DNA of 64,000 nt, taken from assembly GCA_022113835.1 (NCBI GenBank), contig JAILWY010000021.1:5456001-5520000 (forward strand). The letters are read 5' to 3'. This DNA is from Atopsyche davidsoni. Taxonomy: Eukaryota; Arthropoda; Insecta; Trichoptera; Hydrobiosidae. The position numbers and the translations under genes were made by a program. Under the pieces are notes generated by a model. That model made no database searches, was not told where the DNA came from, and worked only from the letters and a program-made list of their open reading frames with translations. How positions within the stretch are numbered: position 1 is the stretch's first letter; each line of letters starts with the position of its first letter. Shown here one piece after another: positions 4,195 to 60,745 of this stretch.

Positions 4195-5995
4195 GTAAGT
4201 CCGCGGTCGGGAAATAATGGAAGAGACGGTACAGGTAATACCCGGTCAGGGATCATCAATATCATTATGTATTATGGCCCTGTTGAAGCCATGAATTCAA
4301 TAATAAATTATGAAAACCGCCTCTCTTGCTCGTTCTATGGTGTCGAATGACTGAATATTTTGGTTACTGTCGTAAGTCTGTTCATTTCAAAGTTTTATAA
4401 ATGCACAAAGCACATAAAAGAAAAATAAACAAATAGGTTTAACTCAATATAATCACTTATCATGGAGTGGCGTAACACCAGGTGAATGGCACAATTTAGA
4501 TTGTCGGGATTGATTGTAATAATTTAAATAGAAAAATCATGATATTTGTTTTCAAATAAATTAACGCATAGTCTGTTATCTGCAGTCTTACTATTATTGT
4601 GAATATAAGTAAACGCAGTTCATATATTTGCAATTAATTTCTTAATATATTTTTTTGTTGATTAATTTGCCATGACAGAGCAAGCTATTTTTTTTTACAC
4701 TTTACAAAACATAATTTTGTTATTTTACTTAAATAAATATACAACCGTATCGAAGAAATTCATAACTATTGCACTACGCACACGGTAAGCAAGGAAGGTA
4801 ATAAATATTAGTAGAATTATCTTTTAATTTTGTTCCAAAAAAATATATAAAAATACTTTTACAGTAGGATTCTTAGATAAAGTTTTCTCCATTTATAGTT
4901 AGTTGTAGAAATCATTTCAGTTTTGTGCATTGGAGCGCATATTCCACATATTGCATAGCAATTAATCTATAAGATAGACCAATGACATCATTAAAAAGAG
5001 CTTTTATACAATTATTAATAAATATGGTGTTTTCATCCACTTTTTATGTTCAACCTATAATACCATCTTCAATAATAAACCCTGCATTGAGGCAATAAGC
5101 CGTAACCATTCAACCGCGTCGTTCCTGATACATTTAATTCAGAACCGGTGTTGGTAATTGGCCTGCTGACGTGCCCCTCGCAAAAACCAACTTATTGTTC
5201 CATGTTATCTCGTTAAGATCTGATATCTCTATATTATTTTCTACTTTACATTGCAATTTTATAGACACGAACAAAAACAAAATTGCATCACATTAAGCTT
5301 TTTATGCAGCCATAGCAATGTTCTATCATTATTAACACTGCGATTGCTATCGATCTAAAATTAAAGCATTTTAAAAATAAGTACTCGTTATATCTTTGCT
5401 TTATAAACACAATTTTTGCTGTTAAAATCTAATTGAATACGCTATTGTCTTGTTAAAAAGATGTCTCTTTTTTATTTAATATATATTTTTTTCCAAAATG
5501 AGCAATGTATGTTGGCTTTCTAGAATTGTATGTTTGTAATAAATATATTAATTGTATATTGATGAAAATAGTCTTGTTATTTTTGATGTCGATAATACTG
5601 CGCTCTTGATGTGATTGTTCAATCAAAAAGATGGTTTGAAAAATTATATTTTGAAACAATTATTATATATCACTGAAAAGATTTAATGACATGAAGTCAC
5701 AACGCTTATAGAAATTGTAACTTTTTAAAGTATCTCAGATTTATTTTAATCAGCTGTGTTACGTTTTTTTGGGTAATCTTGTTTTTGCACCTACGGAAAT
5801 GCACCCAAATTAAAGTAATCTAAAAATTATTCATTTATAAACACAACATTCAGTAAGAGTAGAAGACCGCGGAAGTCAACACAGATTAGCAATCACGCAT
5901 TCACAGGCAGGGGTGACTATATCCGACTTGCTGCGATATATAAATTCAATATTTTTGACAGAGAGTACTTGGTGGAATTTCATTTTAATATTTTT
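4195..5995. other. AT-rich non-coding stretch
   Basis: No supported gene. Only scattered poly-T and poly-A runs and a mildly GC-richer patch at about 5110-5210 are seen. Confidence 0.6.
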
Positions 5996-6540
5996 GAATA
6001 AAATACTTGAGTGATTTTCCACATGTTCGTTTTTATTTGCGACCGGTTTCGCCAACCTTCCACGTTGGCATTATCAAACAGAGGGAGATTTTATATAATA
6101 ATAAGCAATTAGGTAAGCAATTGTTAGAGGGAGAGGTTCTTGGAAAGAGAGTGATTGTCAGGTGGTAAGGGCTAATGTGATTTAATGTAAATAATTGCAA
6201 ATTTTTGTAAACAAATGTTTTTATATTAATGAGGTAATTATCTACATTATATAAAATCTCACTCTGTTTGATAATGCTAAAGGCCAAAAGCCACCCCCCC
6301 CCCACCAATCCCTCCAAAATCCCCCCACCCTCCTCCCACCCACACACCACTCCACATAAATACAACTACATGGTGACACACGCCACCAAGCCAGTATGAA
6401 AGCGTTTGAAGAAAAGACAAACATATTTTTTTGTACCGCTGCTAAAGCCAAAGACGATTGATTGATCTTTGATAATGCCAACGTGGAAGGTTGGCGAAAC
6501 CGGTCACAAATAAAAACGAACATGTGAAAGTATTTTATTC
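5996..6540. mobile_element. Fold-back MITE-like element
   Basis: The left end (5996-6078) and right end (6471-6540) are long inverted repeats. The left contains ACATGTTCGTTTTTATTTGC then GACCGGTTTCGCCAACC; the right carries their reverse complements. The left arm has about 8-9 extra bases near its outer end. Each arm has a subterminal palindrome, GCCAAC-7 bases-GTTGGC. A second nested inverted pair (about 6068-6102 with 6245-6278) shares ATTATCAAACAGAG. There is no transposase, so it is non-autonomous. A truncated relative lies at 25221-25304. The superfamily is not assigned. The two arms could also be parts of two overlapping insertions. Confidence 0.75.
6291..6353. repeat. C-rich low-complexity tract inside the fold-back element
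   Basis: Runs of C (ten in a row at about 6294-6303) and CCCACCC-type repeats dominate the + strand. The minus strand is therefore G-rich and could form G-quadruplexes. The long Gly/Trp-rich minus-strand frames across it are artefacts of this composition. Confidence 0.7.
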
Positions 6541-6647
6541 AAAAAAATATATATTCTTTAAATCACATATATATAACCTGAATCATTATAGATTTTCTTG
6601 TATTCTAAACTTTGAGACAATTATATTAATAAAAAAAAATACTCAAC

Positions 6648-6774: not shown

Positions 6775-7015
6775 GGTTACACGGCGACGCGAGGACGCGG
6801 CGACAAATCGCCGGTCGTGCCGCCGCGCCCGCACCACGCAGATCGCGCCCGCGGGCGTCCGATCGCGGATCGCGGATCGCGGATCGCGGATCGCGGATCG
6901 CGGCCGCGGCGACTCGCCTGCTAATTAATTGTCGCGCCGCGCCGGGCGTGATCGCGCGGCCACTGCGCATCTCCGATCGCCGCGAGACGGCCGCCAGGGC
7001 TGCGGAACGTGTGAC
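6775..7015. other. GC-rich island
   Basis: An abrupt GC-rich block in AT-rich sequence, with many CpG dinucleotides and repeated GATCGC/GCGATC words. It contains the 8-bp minisatellite at 6861-6903. Long arginine-rich frames on both strands result from the CpG repeats and are not taken as genes. It could be a regulatory island, an unmethylated CpG cluster or a retained repeat; sequence alone does not decide. Confidence 0.6.
6861..6903. repeat. Short tandem repeat, 8-bp unit GATCGCGG
   Basis: About five consecutive exact copies of GATCGCGG, ending in CGGCCGCGG. The unit carries GATC and CGCG words, so the tract is very CpG-dense. Confidence 0.95.
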
Positions 7016-7053: not shown

Positions 7054-7347
7054 CTACACACGCAGCGGCACAGCTTGCGACCGAAATGCAATCAGCCAGT
7101 AGCGTCCCTAAAGCCACCTGCACACGTCGCGCCACAACTTGCAGCCAGCCAATATCGTCCTTATTTGTGTTGTTTAACCACAAAAACCACCCAAAATAAA
7201 GGGATGGCTTTGGCTGTGGGCAAATCGGTCAGAAGTTGTAAGGCTGCTGCCTTGTTTTTTTAAGCTTTGTCTTAGTAAACAACACAAAAGCGGACGCTAT
7301 TAGCTAATTGCAAGTCGGTCAGAATTAGTGTCGCGACGTGTGTGGAG
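7054..7347. mobile_element. Nested hairpin MITE-like repeat
   Basis: The outer arms, 7054-7108 (CTACACACG...CAGTAGCGTCC) and 7292-7347 (GGACGCTATTAGC...CGACGTGTGTGGAG), are imperfect inverted repeats. Inside lies a second inverted pair, about 7119-7160 and 7200-7252, of the same family (CACACGTCGCGCCACAACTT...). This suggests one copy inserted in another. The loop contains ACCACCCAAAATAAAGGGA, which recurs at 15393-15533 and 23456-23550. There is no coding capacity, so it is a non-autonomous element. Confidence 0.7.
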
Positions 7348-15392: not shown

Positions 15393-15533
15393 TATACACG
15401 CCGCGACGCAACTTTCAGCTTGCCAATTGCGTTCTACTTTGCGGTGTTTAACCATTAAAAAAAACACCCAAAATAAAGGAACGCTATTGGCTGATTGGAA
15501 ATCGGTCGCAAGTTGTGCCGCTGAGTGTGTAAA
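15393..15533. mobile_element. Hairpin MITE-like repeat (same family as 7054-7347)
   Basis: Left arm CTATACACGCCGCGACGCAACTT at 15393-15415 pairs imperfectly with right-arm CGCAAGTTGTGCCGCTGAGTGTG. Inner arms are CTTGCCAATTGCG and CGCTATTGGCTGATTGG. The loop includes ACACCCAAAATAAAGGA, shared with other family members. No protein is encoded; long frames across it on both strands are shadows of the palindrome. Confidence 0.75.
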
Positions 15534-17575: not shown

Positions 17576-19833
17576 ATGTAAATCTTACTTATAATGTAAA
17601 TGTTAGCCAGTGTAAATGTAAAATGTTATTTATAAATGTGATTATCACGGCAGGGTTATTTATTACCGTGTCAGGTTAGTAATACATTATTTTTATATTT
17701 ATTCCTTCTCGAATTCGTAAATAAATTTTAATGGATGTTATTTATCAGGGGTTTGAATTTCAGCATATTACATGAATATAACTTTAAAATATTGAAATAT
17801 AAAGTAGCAGTTGGAGTTCTGTATAAGCACCTCTTATCTTTGAAAGACAATAATGATATAATATACATAATAATAAATCATGTTTAATAATAAAATCACA
17901 AGATGCCATGAAACCAATAACGTTTAAATTCCTAATGCAAAGGTTTGAATTATAGTTGGTGCTAAGCATTTAACTTGGTGTATCATATTCTTTCCGTTCA
18001 ATTTTTAGAAATATCCTTTGTTTACCATTCAGCAAGCAATCAAAAGTTACCCAACAGGCATTAACACTGTATCGAGTGCAGCTAAAAAACTAATAGGCTT
18101 TTTTCAAGAGACCTACTATGCAATCTGAAAAAAATAAAAATTCTTGAAATACCGTAAAAGTTGGGACCAACACCGTCACGATACAATTATGTTTCTTAGC
18201 ATGTTTATTTTATAAAGTCTAATCCATCACTGTTTTTCTATTCTTAATTAACAAATCCTTCACGTTTTCCTTATAAAGTTCTCATGTTTATCTGATAAGA
18301 TTTCAGTAATAAATCAATCAGACGTACTTAAACCATATACAGGTACCTAAGGCCCATTGTTTTATTGAATTATACACAATGCCTGCAATACCTAATAACC
18401 TAATGACTCGGCGTGTACTTCATCTCAGTCAACCTCCGATAGATTCACACGTCCTGTATGTGTCGACAGCTCTACAGCCTTGTAATGTCAAACCAGTCCA
18501 AAACGCGGACTTCACTACTTTCTTATCATAACAAATTATTATTTACCAGAGGTGAATCATACGATGTCTTGCTAAATAAAATATTACTACCAAAAAAAAT
18601 TACAAATATTCACCGCTCAAGGCTGCTTTAAACTGAATAAAACGAAGTTAATATTTGTACCAGATGATTATAATTTTTTTTTTATATCTCTTATAGATGA
18701 TTTTTAAATAGTATACATTAAAATTCTATTACTTTTTGAGATTCAATAATTGTTGAAATAATGTATCTAATATCAGTTCTAAGTTGTAGTGAAATTATAT
18801 CGCTGCAGGGTTAAATAGCTCACACTTTTTGATTAATATATAAAATACATTTTTCCTAGATATGAATTGGAATGCATTATTTAAAGTGGTTTGATATAAG
18901 ACGTGCAAATATAATATCATGTAATGACAAAAATATTTGTAGAATTTAATTATAATATTTTTATGAAATAATAGTCCATTTCCATTTACATCCAATTTCT
19001 TTTGTTTTATTTTGTTTTTTTAGTAATAGGTTTTTGTTTGGCATCTACCCTTATATTTAAACAAGTAAAATGATGAAATAAATATTTACAAAAACATTAT
19101 TCATGACTTTTTGAATAAAGTTCATATTATTTACGATTATCATTTTCCATGTGTTTGAAACTCAGTATAGTTTTTTTATAGGTTTTCACTTATTTATTAT
19201 TTTTAAAAGATCATGCGACTCCCTCACCCCACGCCACTGCACGCTACAGGCTTGTCACTTGCCCACACTGGAGATTGAGTTTTAACACAATTAGCATATT
19301 TATACAATTATTAGCATAATTACAACCGCAACACAATACTTTTTGTACAACTGCATTAAATTAAATCTAATGTATGATTTTATCAAACTATTATTATGGC
19401 CACCACTTTATAACATTTGTTTTATTGTGAACTTTTCTCATAGTACCTAATAAATTAGCTTGATAACCAACTACGTTTATATTCAATAATGCAAAATAAC
19501 ACAAATTGATATGATGAATATTTTAACGTAAATTTTAAATGAAATCTAACGACATTTTAAGTGATACTGAAGGAACTTAATAAGAATCATATATAAACAA
19601 AACTTATACAGAACTTGCATGTTTTGAATGGACGATTACGATTCTCATACATTTTGTTTTACTTTCTTGATTATCAGGTATTGAATTGTATTGTTGAGTA
19701 AACAATGATTATGAATGATTAATTTCCACTGTTGAGATAAGAAGAAATAAGTTGTTGATATATTTATTTATATGAAAACCTATTGGTAGTATCAATTTAT
19801 GAAAAGCTATTTAACGGATATTTTATAAAATAT
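17576..19833. other. AT-rich non-coding stretch
   Basis: No gene or repeat supported. Small mixed patches lie at 18390-18510 and 19215-19270. Confidence 0.6.
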
Positions 19834-20037
19834 TGATTGGCCTGGGCACATTGATTCATATGTAGAGTATGACTGTTAAAAATTCTCGATAAACGGAAGT
19901 GATTCGTTAGTACAGGGGTTCGTACACCGGTCATGTAAACCAGGAGATGTGGGTTCAAATCCCACACAAATCACGATGATATTTTTCTGAGAGTTTCTTT
20001 AAGTCATCTTCTATATATGAACTAATGTGACTAATCA
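19834..20037 (+). mobile_element. Solitary MITE with tRNA-like module (204 bp)
   Basis: The left terminus TGATTGGCCTGGGCACATT and the right terminus, reading inward on the minus strand TGATTAGTCACATTAGTTCA, are imperfect inverted repeats of about 36 bp with one 4-5 base gap. They enclose a 73-nt tRNA-like cloverleaf (19901-19973) and a conserved segment GATGATATTTTTCTGAGAG. The element is flanked by TAT on both sides, a possible 3-bp target duplication. It is homologous end to end with the six 205-bp copies at 46737-49022 but clearly diverged from them. No protein is encoded. Terminal repeats are typical of DNA transposons and are not expected in tRNA-derived SINEs. Confidence 0.75.
19901..19973 (+). 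tRNA. tRNA-like sequence, Thr(TGT)-like, inside MITE
   Basis: A full cloverleaf can be drawn. The acceptor is GATTCGT with ACAAATC (one C-A mismatch). The D-stem is GTAC/GTAC. The anticodon stem is CCGGT with ACCAG (one C-A mismatch), around loop CATGTAA with anticodon TGT. The variable loop has five bases. The T-arm is a perfect five-pair stem, GTGGG/CCCAC, around TTCAAAT, and the discriminator is A. The stretch from the D-stem to the T-arm resembles eukaryotic tRNA-Thr. Position 33 is A rather than the near-universal T, and acceptor and anticodon stems each have a mismatch. A pseudogenised, element-borne tRNA is therefore more likely than a working tRNA. No T-run terminator follows directly; the first TTTTT is about ten bases downstream. 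Confidence 0.5.
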
Positions 20038-20089
20038 TATTAGTAATAATTTTATAAAACGTTAGGAAATCAAGTTTTTTTTTATTGTA

Positions 20090-24480: not shown

Positions 24481-25220
24481 TTCGATGCCGTATTTACTAT
24501 TGAATTTAAAATCGTATTGTTAAATGCTGAATTTGATTTCTTACAAAAGACTATAATTCATGTATGTAAACACAATTGGTTTTGATGCATTGTCATCATC
24601 TAAAGTTTCTCAAAAAAATCAAGTATTATTTTAGTCATAAATGATAGATGTACCTAAATTATTTATAATGAAAAACATATGTGTACTCTAAACATAAAAT
24701 AAATGGATTAACAAAAATGATATACGGCTGAAAATGTTTTTTCAGACACATTGAAATAATCAGCAGTTACGGTTTTATGGTTCATAAAAACGTTCATATA
24801 TTATACACATATAAGACGCCGCAAATAAAGGTCACCCTTCAGCTACTGCTATCTGCTGCGCTGGCGGCTCTTCTGCATCAGGCTGTATTTATTACAGGGT
24901 AAGGCTGACCTGTAGGGCTGGCAGGGTGGTGCTATACCAAGAATAACAATACACCAAAGTAACTCAGACCAACACGCTATTATCAAAGCAAGCGTGTCTA
25001 ACGCTCGAGGTACGATATATGTGAGCACGTATTCATCCGCCTATCGAGGAGTCAGGAAAGTATACATTAATCTTAGTGTATTATATCTTAGAACAGCTTA
25101 ACTAAAAATGCTACATAGTAAATAGATTATGGAGGGTGTAAAATTTATAAGCATATAATAACATCCCTGTCAAGTTATTAAAGCTTATTAAGGTCAACTA
25201 CAAACAATCCAAATAATAAT
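24481..25220. other. Non-coding stretch
   Basis: AT-rich to 24830. A mixed patch at 24835-25060 has a tandem-like GGCTGACCTGTAGGGCTGGCAGG, with no recognised gene. Confidence 0.5.
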
Positions 25221-25304
25221 GAATAAAGTACTTGACTGATTTTCCACATGTTCGTTTTTATTTGTGACCGGTTTCGCCAACCTTTCATGTTGGCAAAACT
25301 GGTC
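25221..25304. mobile_element. Truncated fold-back MITE terminus
   Basis: Matches the left end of the element at 5996-6078 (ACATGTTCGTTTTTATTTG, then GACCGGTTTCGCCAACC). Here the sequence immediately turns back as GTTGGC-AAAACTGGTC, giving a compact hairpin. It is a solo or internally deleted terminus. Confidence 0.75.
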
Positions 25305-37060: not shown

Positions 37061-37195
37061 TACTTAATAAGTTACATAATAAAAACATTATCTTGAAATA
37101 GGCTTTTCAAATAATTCGAAGTTTAATAAAGTGAAGAATCTTTTAGAGTTTTTAAAAGTTAGACAATGAAGTTAAAAATATGTGTATGGTTAGTT

Positions 37196-37322
37196 ATGCA
37201 TCTGATGATGACCTAGTCTATTCGGTCGAAACTAGTCATGCAAAAGAAGACAAAATACAAAGTTACTTTTATCATTTTATTAATGGATCTTCACCAATCA
37301 AATGCCTTGTCCCTCAACAAGA
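37196..37322. mobile_element. Partial hairpin repeat, GATGATGACC family
   Basis: Begins ATGCATCTGATGATGACC, then GGTCGAAACTAGTC, AAGACAAAATACAAAGTTAC and ATGGATCTTCACCAATCAAA, ending CCTCAACAAGA. The second half is the reverse complement of the left arm of the element at 60542-60745, so this is one arm of the same family. It is non-coding and its class is not assigned. Confidence 0.7.
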
Positions 37323-40750: not shown

Positions 40751-43305
40751 TATTTTGAAAATTTTCCTCTGAATAAATACAATTAATTCAATGATTTATT
40801 TAAAATTATATTAATACATACTTAGAGACTTTCGTTTTAGTCAGGTTGGGAATTCGAAAGTTCGAAGATTGTATTAATTTTATTTCGCTTTGAGACTCGG
40901 TACAACTCCTGGTATTTTGGATTTGTAAAATCACGTATTATCTTTCGGTGTGCAGTCTTTAAAACCCTTATTTAAACTCACTGCCACCAAAGACATCTTA
41001 GGTGTATGTTAATACAAATATCTGGAATGACTGCTCTATTATCTGCTAATTAACTCAAGTCACTCACAAAAAAAGTCACTCACTTATCCATACTCGATAA
41101 GATAAGAATATGAAAACTGGATTTACTTTTTTGTATTTCAAATAACAATCACAACATTAACAAAGTATAACAATAATAAAGTAATTAGTATAAAAATTAT
41201 GACACGATTTATTTTATCAACCAATTTAGAAAGTCTGATCCTACAATCTCATGATAACATATTCACACACTAGGTATAGCATATTCGTGATAATTAGAGA
41301 CTAATCAACTATCGTTTATTTTCTTTTTATTTTCCATAATATAGCTTTTTTAATTAATATTTGCATACCATACACATATTTTCAGCTATATTGTCTAACT
41401 TTTAAAACCCCTTAAAGATTATTCAATTTATTATACGAATTAATTGAAAAAGCCTGCTTCAAGATAATGTTACTTGAATAAACGACAATTTTGTCTTTAA
41501 AATTATATGAAATTCATTGAGGTAAGGAAAGCAGCTAATTTTGAAGATCCTTGCAACTTTGATACTCTATACTCTGTACAAAATACAACGCTTTTATTGG
41601 ACAATTTTACCCACCTTCCCCTTTCATTGCTTTTCTGAATTTCTTGCTTTGCTTGCACCGCTCTTGCCCTCTTCTCCCCTGGGGAACATTCAAGGGTAAG
41701 AGGGTACAGATACGGTGATTAGAGTGTGCTATCGCTAAAAACTTGACAATTTATTGAACATTACGTTTTTGGTGCAAATTTTACAAATTATCTTATTTCA
41801 TTTTTCTATAAAAAATTTGTTTCAAAATTACTTAATTTTCTTCAATAGCTCCAATTATTTAAACCACATATTGAATATTTTACAAATATACATTAAACTA
41901 CCAGATTTATGTATAAAAAATATTTTTACTCCTTAAAGGCATTCAAAAATCAAAAAAACTAAAATCATTTTATCAAGTTTTTACAGTATCGAACTATACA
42001 TCGAGATTTTTCAAAACAAAAATGCCTCCCATTGCTTTGTTTTATAAAAACCTTATTATTATTTAAATTAGCTTTTAAAACAATTTCAGTATAATATATA
42101 CGCATAGTAAAAGATATAGTAAACATAAATATAGTTTACAACCTGTAGTGACCCTAACACGGTATTAAATTTGCAAAAAAAAACTAGAACTACATTGCAC
42201 TGTCTGCTTGACCAGATCAAACCCAATAACACTTTGATAAACGGCAACAATAAAATTACTTGATTTTAAAGTTTACTGTTATAAATAAAACACTTTTTCG
42301 CAAATTTCAGCATTTTTACTCATTGTTATGCCATCCAATATAAACACTGAGGGTGTTTACAAATATTGTTGGCTTAATTTTCATTAGTAAAGCTTAGGTG
42401 GTTGTGGGCCAACATTGATCTATAAATATGATCAAAATCAAAGTTTGATACTAGTCTTGTATTTATTTAAATTAAATTAATATTTAAATATACAGGCTTG
42501 TACATATTAATAGTATTGAAGACTATTGAGATAAATCTTAGAATGATACTCGCAAGACAATGATCTTGTATATCAAGCCTTTTCTCATCATTGTACCGTC
42601 ATCTTCCACTTTCTACAGACACCCCTTGCCTTAACTTAACTTTACACCCTTAACTAGGGGCATGTTTAAAATACGGCGGGGTGTCATGAAGTCTTAGAAG
42701 GGTACTTGGCAAACATTACGAACAGTCATTATGCAAATTGTCGGAAGGGTTGAATTTTAGAGCTTCTAGATTAAGAAGGCAGCCTTTTTTATAAATACTA
42801 ATTTTATTGTTACGAATGTAAACTTAGTAAATAAACTTTATGACTCACTTATTAAAAAACAAAACAATCCAACTGAAAACTTTATTATACTATGATTGTT
42901 TGGGGATTATTTTGGTTTTTATAACCCTGGATACTCTTTTAGCAATTCTCTATTTATGGCTTATGCTGGAAATACTAAAAGCTGAAGACGACTGCAATCC
43001 TGCAATCATCTCTATAAATTTTAATTGTTGCTCTGTTGTCGTTTTCAATCATAGTCTTCTATTTAAAAGACTTACACTCTTTGTTCAGACTCACACCAAT
43101 CGCATTCAGTGTAATTTCTATAAAATAAACTGTAAATTATTTAATTGTTTATTATTTGTCTGCTTCTTATTTCGTTGTTATCACAAAATACTATTAATGC
43201 GTATTAATTTTTGTCTTCATTATTCATCCACAATTTAAAACCACGCTTAAAAATAATTAAACACTTTCATCAAATTACAAGTAGAAAAGAATCCATCTCA
43301 CTCTC
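40751..43305. other. AT-rich non-coding stretch
   Basis: Mixed patches at 41600-41700 (CT-rich) and 42600-42760. A 132-codon + strand frame at 42840-43238 is AT-rich, hydrophobic and cysteine-scattered, without any domain. A frame of that length is not surprising in 64 kb, so it is not called a gene. Confidence 0.5.
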
Positions 43306-46653: not shown

Positions 46654-46667
46654 ACATTTCTATTGTA
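46654..46667. repeat. Left 14-bp direct repeat flanking the array
   Basis: ACATTTCTATTGTA is repeated exactly at 49022-49035, on the other side of the array. It looks like a target-site duplication of 13 or 14 bp; the first A of the right copy also belongs to the element end. Confidence 0.75.
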
Positions 46668-46736
46668 TATTAATTTTAGATTAATGTTAATCAGGATGCG
46701 TATTTATTTACCCATGCAGGTATTAGTATGTTTATG

Positions 46737-46941
46737 TGATTAAGCATATTTTTTCACACATTGAAAACGATTAAAGAAAACTCTCAGAAAATATCATCGT
46801 GACTTGTGAGGGATTCGAACCCACATCCCCAAGCTTTCATGGCCGGTGCATTTATCCAACTATGCTAACGAGCCACTGCAATTTAGTGAGAATTTCTAAT
46901 AATCATATTCTACATATGAACTAATATGCTCGGGCTAATCA
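46737..46941 (-). mobile_element. tRNA-containing MITE, array copy 1 (inverted)
   Basis: A 205-bp copy with termini TGATTAAGCATATT (left) and, inward on the other strand, TGATTAGCCCGAGCATATT. The two ends align as inverted repeats with a 5-base gap. The tRNA-like module is at 46800-46874 on the minus strand. Confidence 0.8.
46800..46874 (-). pseudogene. tRNA-like module, array copy 1
   Basis: Cloverleaf with acceptor GGCTCGT/ACAAGTC (one G-T, one mismatch), D-stem GCAT/ATGC, anticodon loop CATGAAA (anticodon position TGA), T-stem GTGGG/CCCTC with one T-T mismatch, and loop TTCGAAT. Box A is TAGCATAGTTGG and box B is GGTTCGAATCC. A at position 33 and lack of the long variable arm argue against a working tRNA-Ser. 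Confidence 0.5.
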
Positions 46942-47140
46942 ATATTTAATGATTTGCAAACACTGGACTTTTTAATTAAAGTAACAAGTGAAGCATTTTT
47001 ATATCCAAAGCTGGTTATTATTATTTTTAAAATCTATTGATGTTTTAGCCGAGACGCGCACCATTCAATTATATTAATTTTAGATTAATGTTAATCAGGA
47101 TGCGTATTTATTTACCCATGCAGGTATTAGTATGTTTATG

Positions 47141-47345
47141 TGATTAAGCATATTTTTTCACACATTGAAAACGATTAAAGAAAACTCTCAGAAAATATCA
47201 TCGTGACTTGTGAGGGATTCGAACCCACATCCCCAAGCTTTCATGGCCGGTGCATTTATCCAACTATGCTAACGAGCCACTGCAATTTAGTGAGAATTTC
47301 TAATAATCATATTCTACATATGAACTAATATGCTCGGGCTAATCA
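47141..47345 (-). mobile_element. tRNA-containing MITE, array copy 2 (inverted)
   Basis: Looks identical to copy 1, exactly 404 bp downstream. The tRNA-like module is at 47204-47278 on the minus strand. Followed by 45 bp of spacer, then the polarity switch. Confidence 0.8.
47204..47278 (-). pseudogene. tRNA-like module, array copy 2
   Basis: Looks identical to the module in copy 1; same cloverleaf and same TGA at the anticodon position. Confidence 0.5.
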
Positions 47346-47384
47346 ATATTTAATGATTTGCAAACACTGGACTTTTTAATTAAA

Positions 47385-47396
47385 GTAACAAAAATA
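47385..47396. other. Inversion junction of the array
   Basis: The inverted unit, reading ...TTAAAGTAACAA in its spacer, changes directly into AAATATGCTTAATCA, the terminal part of a direct-orientation MITE. No extra sequence is inserted; A bases at the joint make the exact point uncertain by a few bases. Confidence 0.8.
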
Positions 47397-47605
47397 TGCT
47401 TAATCACATAAACATACTAATACCTGCATGGGTAAATAAATACGCATCCTGATTAACATTAATCTAAAATTAATATAATTGAATGGTGCGCGTCTCGGCT
47501 AAAACATCAATAGATTTTAAAAATAATAATAACCAGCTTTGGATATAAAAATGCTTCACTTGTTACTTTAATTAAAAAGTCCAGTGTTTGCAAATCATTA
47601 AATAT

Positions 47606-47810
47606 TGATTAGCCCGAGCATATTAGTTCATATGTAGAATATGATTATTAGAAATTCTCACTAAATTGCAGTGGCTCGTTAGCATAGTTGGATAAATGCA
47701 CCGGCCATGAAAGCTTGGGGATGTGGGTTCGAATCCCTCACAAGTCACGATGATATTTTCTGAGAGTTTTCTTTAATCGTTTTCAATGTGTGAAAAAATA
47801 TGCTTAATCA
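47606..47810 (+). mobile_element. tRNA-containing MITE, array copy 3 (direct)
   Basis: 205 bp from TGATTAGCC to GCTTAATCA. Preceded by AAATAT, so the base context just outside the left end (TAT) equals that of the solitary element at 19834. The tRNA-like module is at 47673-47747. Confidence 0.8.
47673..47747 (+). pseudogene. tRNA-like module, array copy 3
   Basis: Same 75-nt cloverleaf as the other array copies (TGA at the anticodon position). The D-loop is two bases longer than in the solitary Thr-like module at 19901. Confidence 0.5.
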
Positions 47811-48009
47811 CATAAACATACTAATACCTGCATGGGTAAATAAATACGCATCCTGATTAACATTAATCTAAAATTAATATAATTGAATGGTGCGCGTCTC
47901 GGCTAAAACATCAATAGATTTTAAAAATAATAATAACCAGCTTTGGATATAAAAATGCTTCACTTGTTACTTTAATTAAAAAGTCCAGTGTTTGCAAATC
48001 ATTAAATAT
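47811..48009. repeat. 199-bp array spacer
   Basis: Non-coding sequence between MITE copies 3 and 4, repeated between copies 4-5 and 5-6, and in part at both the left end and the inversion joint. It contains GGTGCGCGTCTCGGC. No relation to the flanks of the solitary MITE was seen. It is the sequence carried along when the unit was amplified. Confidence 0.75.
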
Positions 48010-48214
48010 TGATTAGCCCGAGCATATTAGTTCATATGTAGAATATGATTATTAGAAATTCTCACTAAATTGCAGTGGCTCGTTAGCATAGTTGGATAAA
48101 TGCACCGGCCATGAAAGCTTGGGGATGTGGGTTCGAATCCCTCACAAGTCACGATGATATTTTCTGAGAGTTTTCTTTAATCGTTTTCAATGTGTGAAAA
48201 AATATGCTTAATCA
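48010..48214 (+). mobile_element. tRNA-containing MITE, array copy 4 (direct)
   Basis: Looks identical to copy 3. The tRNA-like module is at 48077-48151. Confidence 0.8.
48077..48151 (+). pseudogene. tRNA-like module, array copy 4
   Basis: Looks identical to the module in copy 3. Confidence 0.5.
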
Positions 48215-48413
48215 CATAAACATACTAATACCTGCATGGGTAAATAAATACGCATCCTGATTAACATTAATCTAAAATTAATATAATTGAATGGTGCGCG
48301 TCTCGGCTAAAACATCAATAGATTTTAAAAATAATAATAACCAGCTTTGGATATAAAAATGCTTCACTTGTTACTTTAATTAAAAAGTCCAGTGTTTGCA
48401 AATCATTAAATAT

Positions 48414-48618
48414 TGATTAGCCCGAGCATATTAGTTCATATGTAGAATATGATTATTAGAAATTCTCACTAAATTGCAGTGGCTCGTTAGCATAGTTGGA
48501 TAAATGCACCGGCCATGAAAGCTTGGGGATGTGGGTTCGAATCCCTCACAAGTCACGATGATATTTTCTGAGAGTTTTCTTTAATCGTTTTCAATGTGTG
48601 AAAAAATATGCTTAATCA
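48414..48618 (+). mobile_element. tRNA-containing MITE, array copy 5 (direct)
   Basis: Looks identical to copy 3. The tRNA-like module is at 48481-48555. Confidence 0.8.
48481..48555 (+). pseudogene. tRNA-like module, array copy 5
   Basis: Looks identical to the module in copy 3. Confidence 0.5.
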
Positions 48619-48817
48619 CATAAACATACTAATACCTGCATGGGTAAATAAATACGCATCCTGATTAACATTAATCTAAAATTAATATAATTGAATGGTG
48701 CGCGTCTCGGCTAAAACATCAATAGATTTTAAAAATAATAATAACCAGCTTTGGATATAAAAATGCTTCACTTGTTACTTTAATTAAAAAGTCCAGTGTT
48801 TGCAAATCATTAAATAT

Positions 48818-49022
48818 TGATTAGCCCGAGCATATTAGTTCATATGTAGAATATGATTATTAGAAATTCTCACTAAATTGCAGTGGCTCGTTAGCATAGT
48901 TGGATAAATGCACCGGCCATGAAAGCTTGGGGATGTGGGTTCGAATCCCTCACAAGTCACGATGATATTTTCTGAGAGTTTTCTTTAATCGTTTTCAATG
49001 TGTGAAAAAATATGCTTAATCA
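48818..49022 (+). mobile_element. tRNA-containing MITE, array copy 6 (direct, terminal)
   Basis: Looks identical to copy 3. Its terminal TAATCA is the last base block of the array; unique sequence begins with CATTTCTATTG. The tRNA-like module is at 48885-48959. Confidence 0.8.
48885..48959 (+). pseudogene. tRNA-like module, array copy 6
   Basis: Looks identical to the module in copy 3. Confidence 0.5.
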
Positions 49023-49035
49023 CATTTCTATTGTA
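49022..49035. repeat. Right 14-bp direct repeat flanking the array
   Basis: ACATTTCTATTGTA, identical to 46654-46667. Confidence 0.75.
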
Positions 49036-50189: not shown

Positions 50190-50600
50190 AAAAAATCCAA
50201 ATTCTCTACGATCCTGCGGCGATAGGACTCCAGGATAGAGACGTAAAAAAGGCGTACGAGTCATTAATCAAGGACGTAAAAAAAGGATTATTTAAATAGG
50301 AAAACAAAATGTCCTCCCGGTTGACTGATGCCGCCCGCTCGCTTGACAAATGGCGGTACCTCGGGAACTAATGCCCGGCCATCGGTCATTGTCGGGTGCT
50401 GTCGGGACTTGTCGGGACTTGTCGGGACTTGTCGGGACTTGTCGGGACTTGTCGGGGCCTGTCGGGAGTCCTCGGGAGTCCTCGGGAGTCGTCGGGCGAC
50501 ACTAATTGACTGGCGGTCGCGCGGTGACTCATCGCGCCCTCTCTACTAATGAAATGTCGGTTGACTGACGCCTAATAATACAGCAAGAAAAATTGCTCCG
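50190..50600. promoter_or_regulatory. GC-rich island with Pho-like and ACAAATGGC sites
   Basis: Contains TTGACAAATGGCGG (50343-50356), two GGTTGACTGA words (near 50321 and 50558), AATTGACTGGCGG and the minisatellite at 50391-50500. No protein is recognised; the frame through the repeat simply reads its periodicity. Likely a regulatory island. Confidence 0.35.
50391..50500. repeat. 10-bp minisatellite, unit GTCGGGACTT
   Basis: Eleven consecutive 10-bp units. Five exact GTCGGGACTT copies lie at 50401-50450, flanked by variants (GTCGGGTGCT before; GTCGGGGCCT, then GTCGGGAGTC, CTCGGGAGTC twice and GTCGGGCGAC after). The gradient of variants shows expansion in the middle. Confidence 0.95.
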
Positions 50601-60541: not shown

Positions 60542-60745
60542 TGTTCTTGTTGAGGTACAAGGCTTTTGATTGGTGAAGATCCATTATTGTAACTTTGTAT
60601 TTTTGTCTTCACATCACACCCTATACACCGGGTCATCATCAGTTTAGTCATGCATCTGATGATGACCCGGTGTATAGGGTCGAAAGTAGTTATCCAAATA
60701 ATTCTAATAAACTCAAAGTGAAGACAAAAATACATAGTTACCTTT
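60542..60745. mobile_element. Hairpin repeat, GATGATGACC family
   Basis: The core is a perfect 25-bp inverted repeat (60619-60643 with 60656-60680, ACCCTATACACCGGGTCATC...) with a 12-base loop. An outer pair, about 60591-60612 and 60719-60741 (TTGTATTTTTGTCTTCAC / GTGAAGACAAAAATAC), encloses it. The left flank TTGGTGAAGATCCATTA is shared, in reverse, with 37196-37322. It is non-coding and MITE- or fold-back-like. Confidence 0.8.

Follow-up and report, generated by a model that had tools for sequence, protein, structure and literature searches.

tRNA-derived SINEs carry boxes A and B, and DINE-1 was later grouped with the Helitrons. Foldback elements have long inverted arms, as does the element described in this study, and to our knowledge carry no tRNA. 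Retrozymes form tandem units of a few hundred bases, similar to a block found here, in which Rfam listed no ribozyme family. A paper that treats DINE-1 as a MITE argued against its likeness to SINEs partly by the absence of Pol III sites and of tRNA-related structure (PMC2374699). Helenus is a published class of TRIMs, that is, of LTR retrotransposons with a tRNA-like sequence in the LTR, and animal Helenus makes 4-bp duplications upon insertion (PMC10886601).

Here, we describe an element present in a window of 64,000 nucleotides, which is the whole stretch of DNA that we analysed, from Atopsyche davidsoni (Trichoptera; contig JAILWY010000021.1, positions 5,456,001 to 5,520,000). Like MITEs, this element is short, lacks an ORF and ends in terminal inverted repeats (TIRs), and it differs from them in that it also has a tRNA-like module. 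With arms and tRNA-like module both present, it does not fit the division between MITEs and SINEs made in the DINE-1 paper (PMC2374699). In contrast to tRNA-derived SINEs such as those of Lepidoptera (PMC8010984), the module here has an arm on either side, and the element includes an internal T-run. The terms “terminal inverted”, “MITE” and “tandem” are absent from the main text of the Lepidoptera article, for which one occurrence of “miniature inverted-repeat” was counted. Helenus TRIMs (PMC10886601) are transposable elements of another order. They share with the element the presence of a tRNA-like sequence containing boxes A and B, and the TG...CA ends. Nevertheless, Helenus TRIMs have LTRs, which are direct repeats, together with a PBS and a PPT, and the 4-bp duplication made by those of animals is not seen here. 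None of the titles and abstract openings found, chiefly outside subscription journals, names a tRNA-bearing MITE, which is not proof of absence.

Results

Inverted arms enclose a tRNA-like sequence

The anatomy of the element, inverted arms around a tRNA-like sequence, is real. The 204-bp unit that a sequence-only reading of this DNA had claimed at 19834-20037 (hereafter u1) is borne out (Table 1), and so is the coexistence of a TIR shell with a tRNA-like Pol III module: homology is bounded near the arm ends and the combination occurs at two independent loci. As for the TIRs themselves, proposed to be around 36 bp long, their presence goes beyond chance whereas their length had been underestimated, since inverted-repeat alignment gives u1 arms of around 54 bp with a 5-bp gap. 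The arm alignment score was 18.5 for u1 and 16.0 for u2, the unit found at the second locus, and the maxima reached by 5000 random window pairs for each were 14.0 and 14.5, so that 0/5000 random pairs attained the score of u1 and likewise 0/5000 that of u2. In u2, the outermost arm bases match and the right arm pairs less well with the left one.

Table 1. Positions of the element, its parts and the neighbouring direct repeats in the 64,000-nt window
Feature	Position	Strand	Remarks
u1, complete unit	19834..20037	+	204 bp; TGATTGG...CTAATCA ends
u1 left inverted arm	19834..19887	+	54 bp
u1 tRNA-like module	19901..19973	+	ARAGORN, Rfam RF00005; TGT in anticodon place, A just before
u1 box A match	19908..19918	+	TAGTACAGGGG; unit position 75
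u1 box B match	19952..19962	+	GGTTCAAATCC; unit position 119
u1 TTTTT, candidate Pol III terminator	19982..19986	+	unit position 149; before right arm
u1 right inverted arm	19987..20037	+	
11-bp direct repeat, left copy	19820..19830	+	ATTTTATAAAA; 3 bases outside u1 left arm
11-bp direct repeat, right copy	20049..20059	+	ATTTTATAAAA; 11 bases outside u1 right arm
Block of 404-bp units	46668..49022		2.36 kb; 1.79 copies inverted (to 47389), then 4.04 forward (from 47390)
u2 unit	46737..46941	-	ARAGORN tRNA 46799-46874
u2 unit	47141..47345	-	ARAGORN tRNA 47203-47278
u2 unit	47606..47810	+	ARAGORN tRNA 47673-47748
u2 unit	48010..48214	+	ARAGORN tRNA 48077-48152
u2 unit	48414..48618	+	ARAGORN tRNA 48481-48556
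u2 unit	48818..49022	+	ARAGORN tRNA 48885-48960; end = block right end
13-bp direct repeat, left copy	46655..46667	+	CATTTCTATTGTA; abuts block
13-bp direct repeat, right copy	49023..49035	+	CATTTCTATTGTA; abuts block

Comparison of u1 with u2 revealed that 159/207 positions (77%) are identical, distributed as 44/54 in the left arm, 8/13 in the left linker, 55/75 in the tRNA-like part, 12/13 in the right linker with its T-run and 40/52 in the right arm. Local homology between both loci comprises 19825-20041 and 47597-47813 and extends no further, which means that it begins 9 bases before the left arm and ends 3–4 bases after the right one; the flanks of u1 and u2 are unrelated. Across 49 ungapped arm columns, u1 and u2 differ at 9 columns of the left arm and 14 of the right arm, with 7 columns changed on both arms (hypergeometric p=0.001, a post hoc value that treats neighbouring columns as independent and derives from one MAFFT alignment). 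Three of these 7 columns acquired the same new base on both arms, and 4 are unpaired in at least one subfamily. Arms changing together, as this post hoc test suggests, are what conversion between the arms or a constraint on their pairing would give. Wobble pairs, G-U versus A-C, amount to 5 versus 2 in u1 and 7 versus 2 in u2; RNA-level selection on the arms as an explanation of this strand bias was set aside (pooled p=0.077, the counts not being independent). The same was done with the finding that left-arm changes are all transitions (10 transitions and 0 transversions, versus 21 and 12 in the other parts; post hoc p=0.04).

The tRNA-like module keeps its promoter boxes

The claim that the sequence is tRNA-like and contains boxes A and B was confirmed by ARAGORN, by Rfam RF00005 and by the box consensus. 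ARAGORN called a tRNA at 19901-19974 in u1 and one in each of the six u2 units, and the RF00005 scores were 45.8 bits for u1 (19901-19973) and 41.6 bits for u2, the gathering score being 29. When both strands of the whole window were considered, a box A followed by a box B within 60 bases occurred in 7 pairs, which correspond to the 7 units, and both boxes keep the consensus in the two subfamilies despite their 23% difference. ARAGORN places TGT in the anticodon position of u1 and TGA in that of u2. The base before the anticodon is A in both cases (19933 in u1, 48919 in u2), and thus the U33 feature of a functional tRNA gene is absent; U33, a T before the anticodon, is nearly universal in working tRNAs. 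Because A and not T precedes the anticodon, the module is tRNA-like, with its promoter boxes kept, and is not a working tRNA.

A T-run, T5 in u1 and T4 in u2, begins eight bases past the module and before the right arm; in u2, that arm contains two further T4 runs. On the other side, both subfamilies carry 67 bp upstream of the tRNA-like part, with the same start at both loci. In tRNA-type Pol III genes the promoter is internal. Since the left arm is located upstream of such an internal promoter and the T5/T4 run comes before the right arm, an ordinary SINE transcript made by Pol III should contain neither arm.

The second locus is one block

Six further 205-bp copies had been reported by the sequence-only reading at 46737-49022. 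These copies do share termini and module with u1, but they are not separate insertions, being parts of one tandem-plus-inverted block in which all six u2 units are 100% identical to one another (205/205 bp). As identical parts of one block of 404-bp units, they count as one locus, and the window therefore contains two independent loci of the family, not seven. Each 404-bp unit consists of the 205-bp element and a 199-bp spacer, and a single circular 404-bp unit accounts for every letter of both the forward and the inverted part. On the right, the block finishes where the element itself does (phase 0 of 404; position 49022, ambiguous within 49021-49025); on the left, it finishes inside the spacer, not at an arm end. 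The adjoining sequence shares 2 bases with the block at its left end, 2 at the inversion junction and 3 at its right end, where no A-rich tail was found. The fold of the spacer is ordinary (z 0.3 versus 100 mononucleotide shuffles), and a hammerhead-type retrozyme was set aside on account of the Rfam listing, which up to E=5 holds no ribozyme family.

The only equal 13-mers that the window contains at the spacing of the block are those of the repeat flanking it (two overlapping starts). Among control 13-mer pairs taken at other spacings and outside the array, 15/17585997 match, and any 13-bp repeat within 40 bp was found in 9/20000 random flank pairs of block size. Most likely, the block entered as one piece; its arrangement may also be an assembly error.

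Direct repeats around both loci

The 11-bp direct repeat at u1 stands off the arms on both sides (Table 1). Repeats of 11 bp or longer in 40-bp flanks occur at 62/32024 AT-rich control positions, which overlap, and at 25/20000 random ones. Directly abutting the arms of u1 there is a 3-bp match, TAT/TAT, of a kind shown by 2.5% of the window positions at that spacing, with a background that is presumably higher in AT-rich sequence; its flanks (AAATAT / TATTAG) present no abutting 4–6-bp repeat. The flanks of u2 within its 404-bp unit are TAT/CAT. These matches do not establish the target duplication typical of any TIR superfamily, the TAT/TAT match being weak evidence. The sequence-only reading had suggested that a DNA transposase possibly moves the element, which the data do not demonstrate: the abutting match at u1 is 3 bp only and no transposase was detected in the window. 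The signs that this reading had named against its own proposal, among them duplications of 7–20 bp, are partly present, with direct repeats of 11 bp at u1 (offset by 3 and 11 bases) and 13 bp at the block. Both the offset 11-bp repeat and the 13-bp repeat suit RNA-mediated or break-capture insertion.

Discussion

How does such an element move? Our tentative first choice is a non-autonomous MITE- or foldback-like TIR element of around 205 bp that carries a tRNA-derived Pol III module. Such an element would move as DNA, both arms being needed for the process and the transposase being supplied in trans. Pol III would transcribe around 90–100 nt that cover the tRNA-like part and terminate at the T-run, and the resulting RNA would be a by-product or render the element some other service, for instance holding chromatin open through TFIIIB/TFIIIC, instead of acting as copy template. 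The block would then represent a secondary event, in which concatenated copies of one element joined to 199 bp of other sequence were inserted in one step, giving rise to the 13-bp target duplication and the internal inversion. In our best reading, the two long arms, the homology that ends near them, the arms changing together, the box A and B consensus kept by both subfamilies, the T-run inside the element and the left arm upstream of the promoter argue for the DNA route. Against it, the 11-bp (u1) and 13-bp (block) repeats fit target-primed insertion better, the left end of the block is not an arm end, abutting matches are limited to TAT/TAT and TAT/CAT, there are two loci only, the window revealed no transposase, and 4 of the 7 columns changed on both arms are unpaired in one subfamily or both. 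Nor do we know of a TIR superfamily with such termini.

The direct repeats bring to mind an RNA-mediated retroposon, which we regard as somewhat unlikely, and in which a LINE-type enzyme inserts an RNA that spans the entire hairpin and is distinct from the internal Pol III transcript. Such RNA could perhaps arise by read-through or be tandem or circular, and twin priming of a tandem or circular 404-nt RNA would have produced the block. Consistent with this are the 13-bp repeat that abuts both block ends and is rare in the two sets of controls, the inversion with its 2-bp junction overlap and the 2 and 3 bp at the left and right ends, and the truncation at one end only, the block finishing at the element end on the right and within the spacer on the left. 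The 11-bp repeat at u1, infrequent at AT-rich control positions, points in the same direction, and the 11 AT-rich bases between the u1 right arm and this repeat could be a decayed tail. However, this RNA pathway has no use for inverted arms at the two ends and no known promoter would copy the left arm; neither does the right end of the block, which is devoid of an A-rich tail, nor the spacer, with its ordinary fold and no Rfam ribozyme family, speak for it. The block can also be viewed as an amplified tandem plus inversion with 2–3 bp of microhomology at all three junctions, as would be produced if the element were not mobile and tRNA pseudogene palindromes had been spread by segmental duplication together with hairpin-provoked, break-induced template switching. 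This is quite improbable in our opinion, because homology between the loci stops near the arm ends and duplication gives no reason for that.

Boxes A and B in the tRNA-like module and direct repeats that fall in the 7–20-bp range are what an ordinary tRNA-derived SINE with accidental arms would display. Nevertheless, the start is not near the tRNA 5′ end, as both loci begin at the same point and keep 67 bp upstream, Pol III would halt at the internal T5/T4 runs without reaching the 3′ part, and the arms are beyond chance, which makes this explanation very improbable. Even harder to believe is that the units are LTRs, solo or in tandem, from a TRIM of the Helenus type, with 205-bp LTRs and a 199-bp internal part, although the TG...CA termini, the tRNA-like sequence inside and the tandem arrangement resembling LTR-internal-LTR would agree with it. 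The 4-bp duplication that should abut TG...CA is absent at u1. As for the PBS and the PPT, inspection by eye, which covered TGG and purine tracts, located the first TGG at base 23 downstream of the unit and found no purine tract upstream of it. We know of no LTRs with 54-bp inverted arms.

Returning to the TIR element that we tentatively prefer, a broader version would be that its tRNA-derived Pol III core is conserved because it is kept for the element's own cycle, defining a class between MITEs and SINEs; in the boldest form, suggested by the twin-primed look of the block, the hairpin-tRNA unit would also spread as tandem or circular RNA copied at the target. We consider this unlikely.

Why does the mode of movement matter? 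TIRs and a tRNA-type Pol III promoter, which serve to distinguish MITEs and SINEs, are combined in this element. If the element moves as DNA, being tRNA-derived does not imply being a retroposon, tRNA gene predictions in such genomes would be inflated by a DNA element, and SINEs and TRIMs would be joined by one more order of transposable elements that has adopted a Pol III module. If movement is through RNA, it is the inverted arms that need explaining in that pathway.

Other sequences in the window

The window has a GC content of 31.5% and the surroundings of the element are gene-poor. No transposase was detected in it: neither the 17 stop-to-stop ORFs of at least 100 aa nor 3 shorter ones had a Pfam match at the cut-off, and two weak matches (E=0.098 and 0.066) were dropped. 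An autonomous transposon with the same termini, which the sequence-only reading had proposed to look for, was not seen within the window. When the window was scanned with profiles built from the complete unit and from its arms, these matched the seven units only, each of them also in reverse via its arms, and the next matches were dropped as chance (E=0.65 for the unit, 0.067 for the arms). Viral and prokaryote DNA collections yielded 0 exact pattern matches, a result that says little about a eukaryotic repeat.

The window also harbours repeats of other kinds. A dispersed repeat, 85–94% identical and with one copy inverted, is located at 5987-6070, 6468-6548 and 25212-25295, and a diverged pair, 76–87% identical and partly inverted, at 7055-7239 and 15396-15531. 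Another dispersed family comprises 37084-37322, 41367-41471 and 60545-60698, the last of which includes a self-inverted stretch (86% identical) at 60618-60680. Finally, there are two short tandem arrays, one with 10.8 copies of the 10-bp unit TTGTCGGGAC at 50389-50496 and a perfect one with 6.1 copies of the 7-bp unit GATCGCG at 6861-6903.
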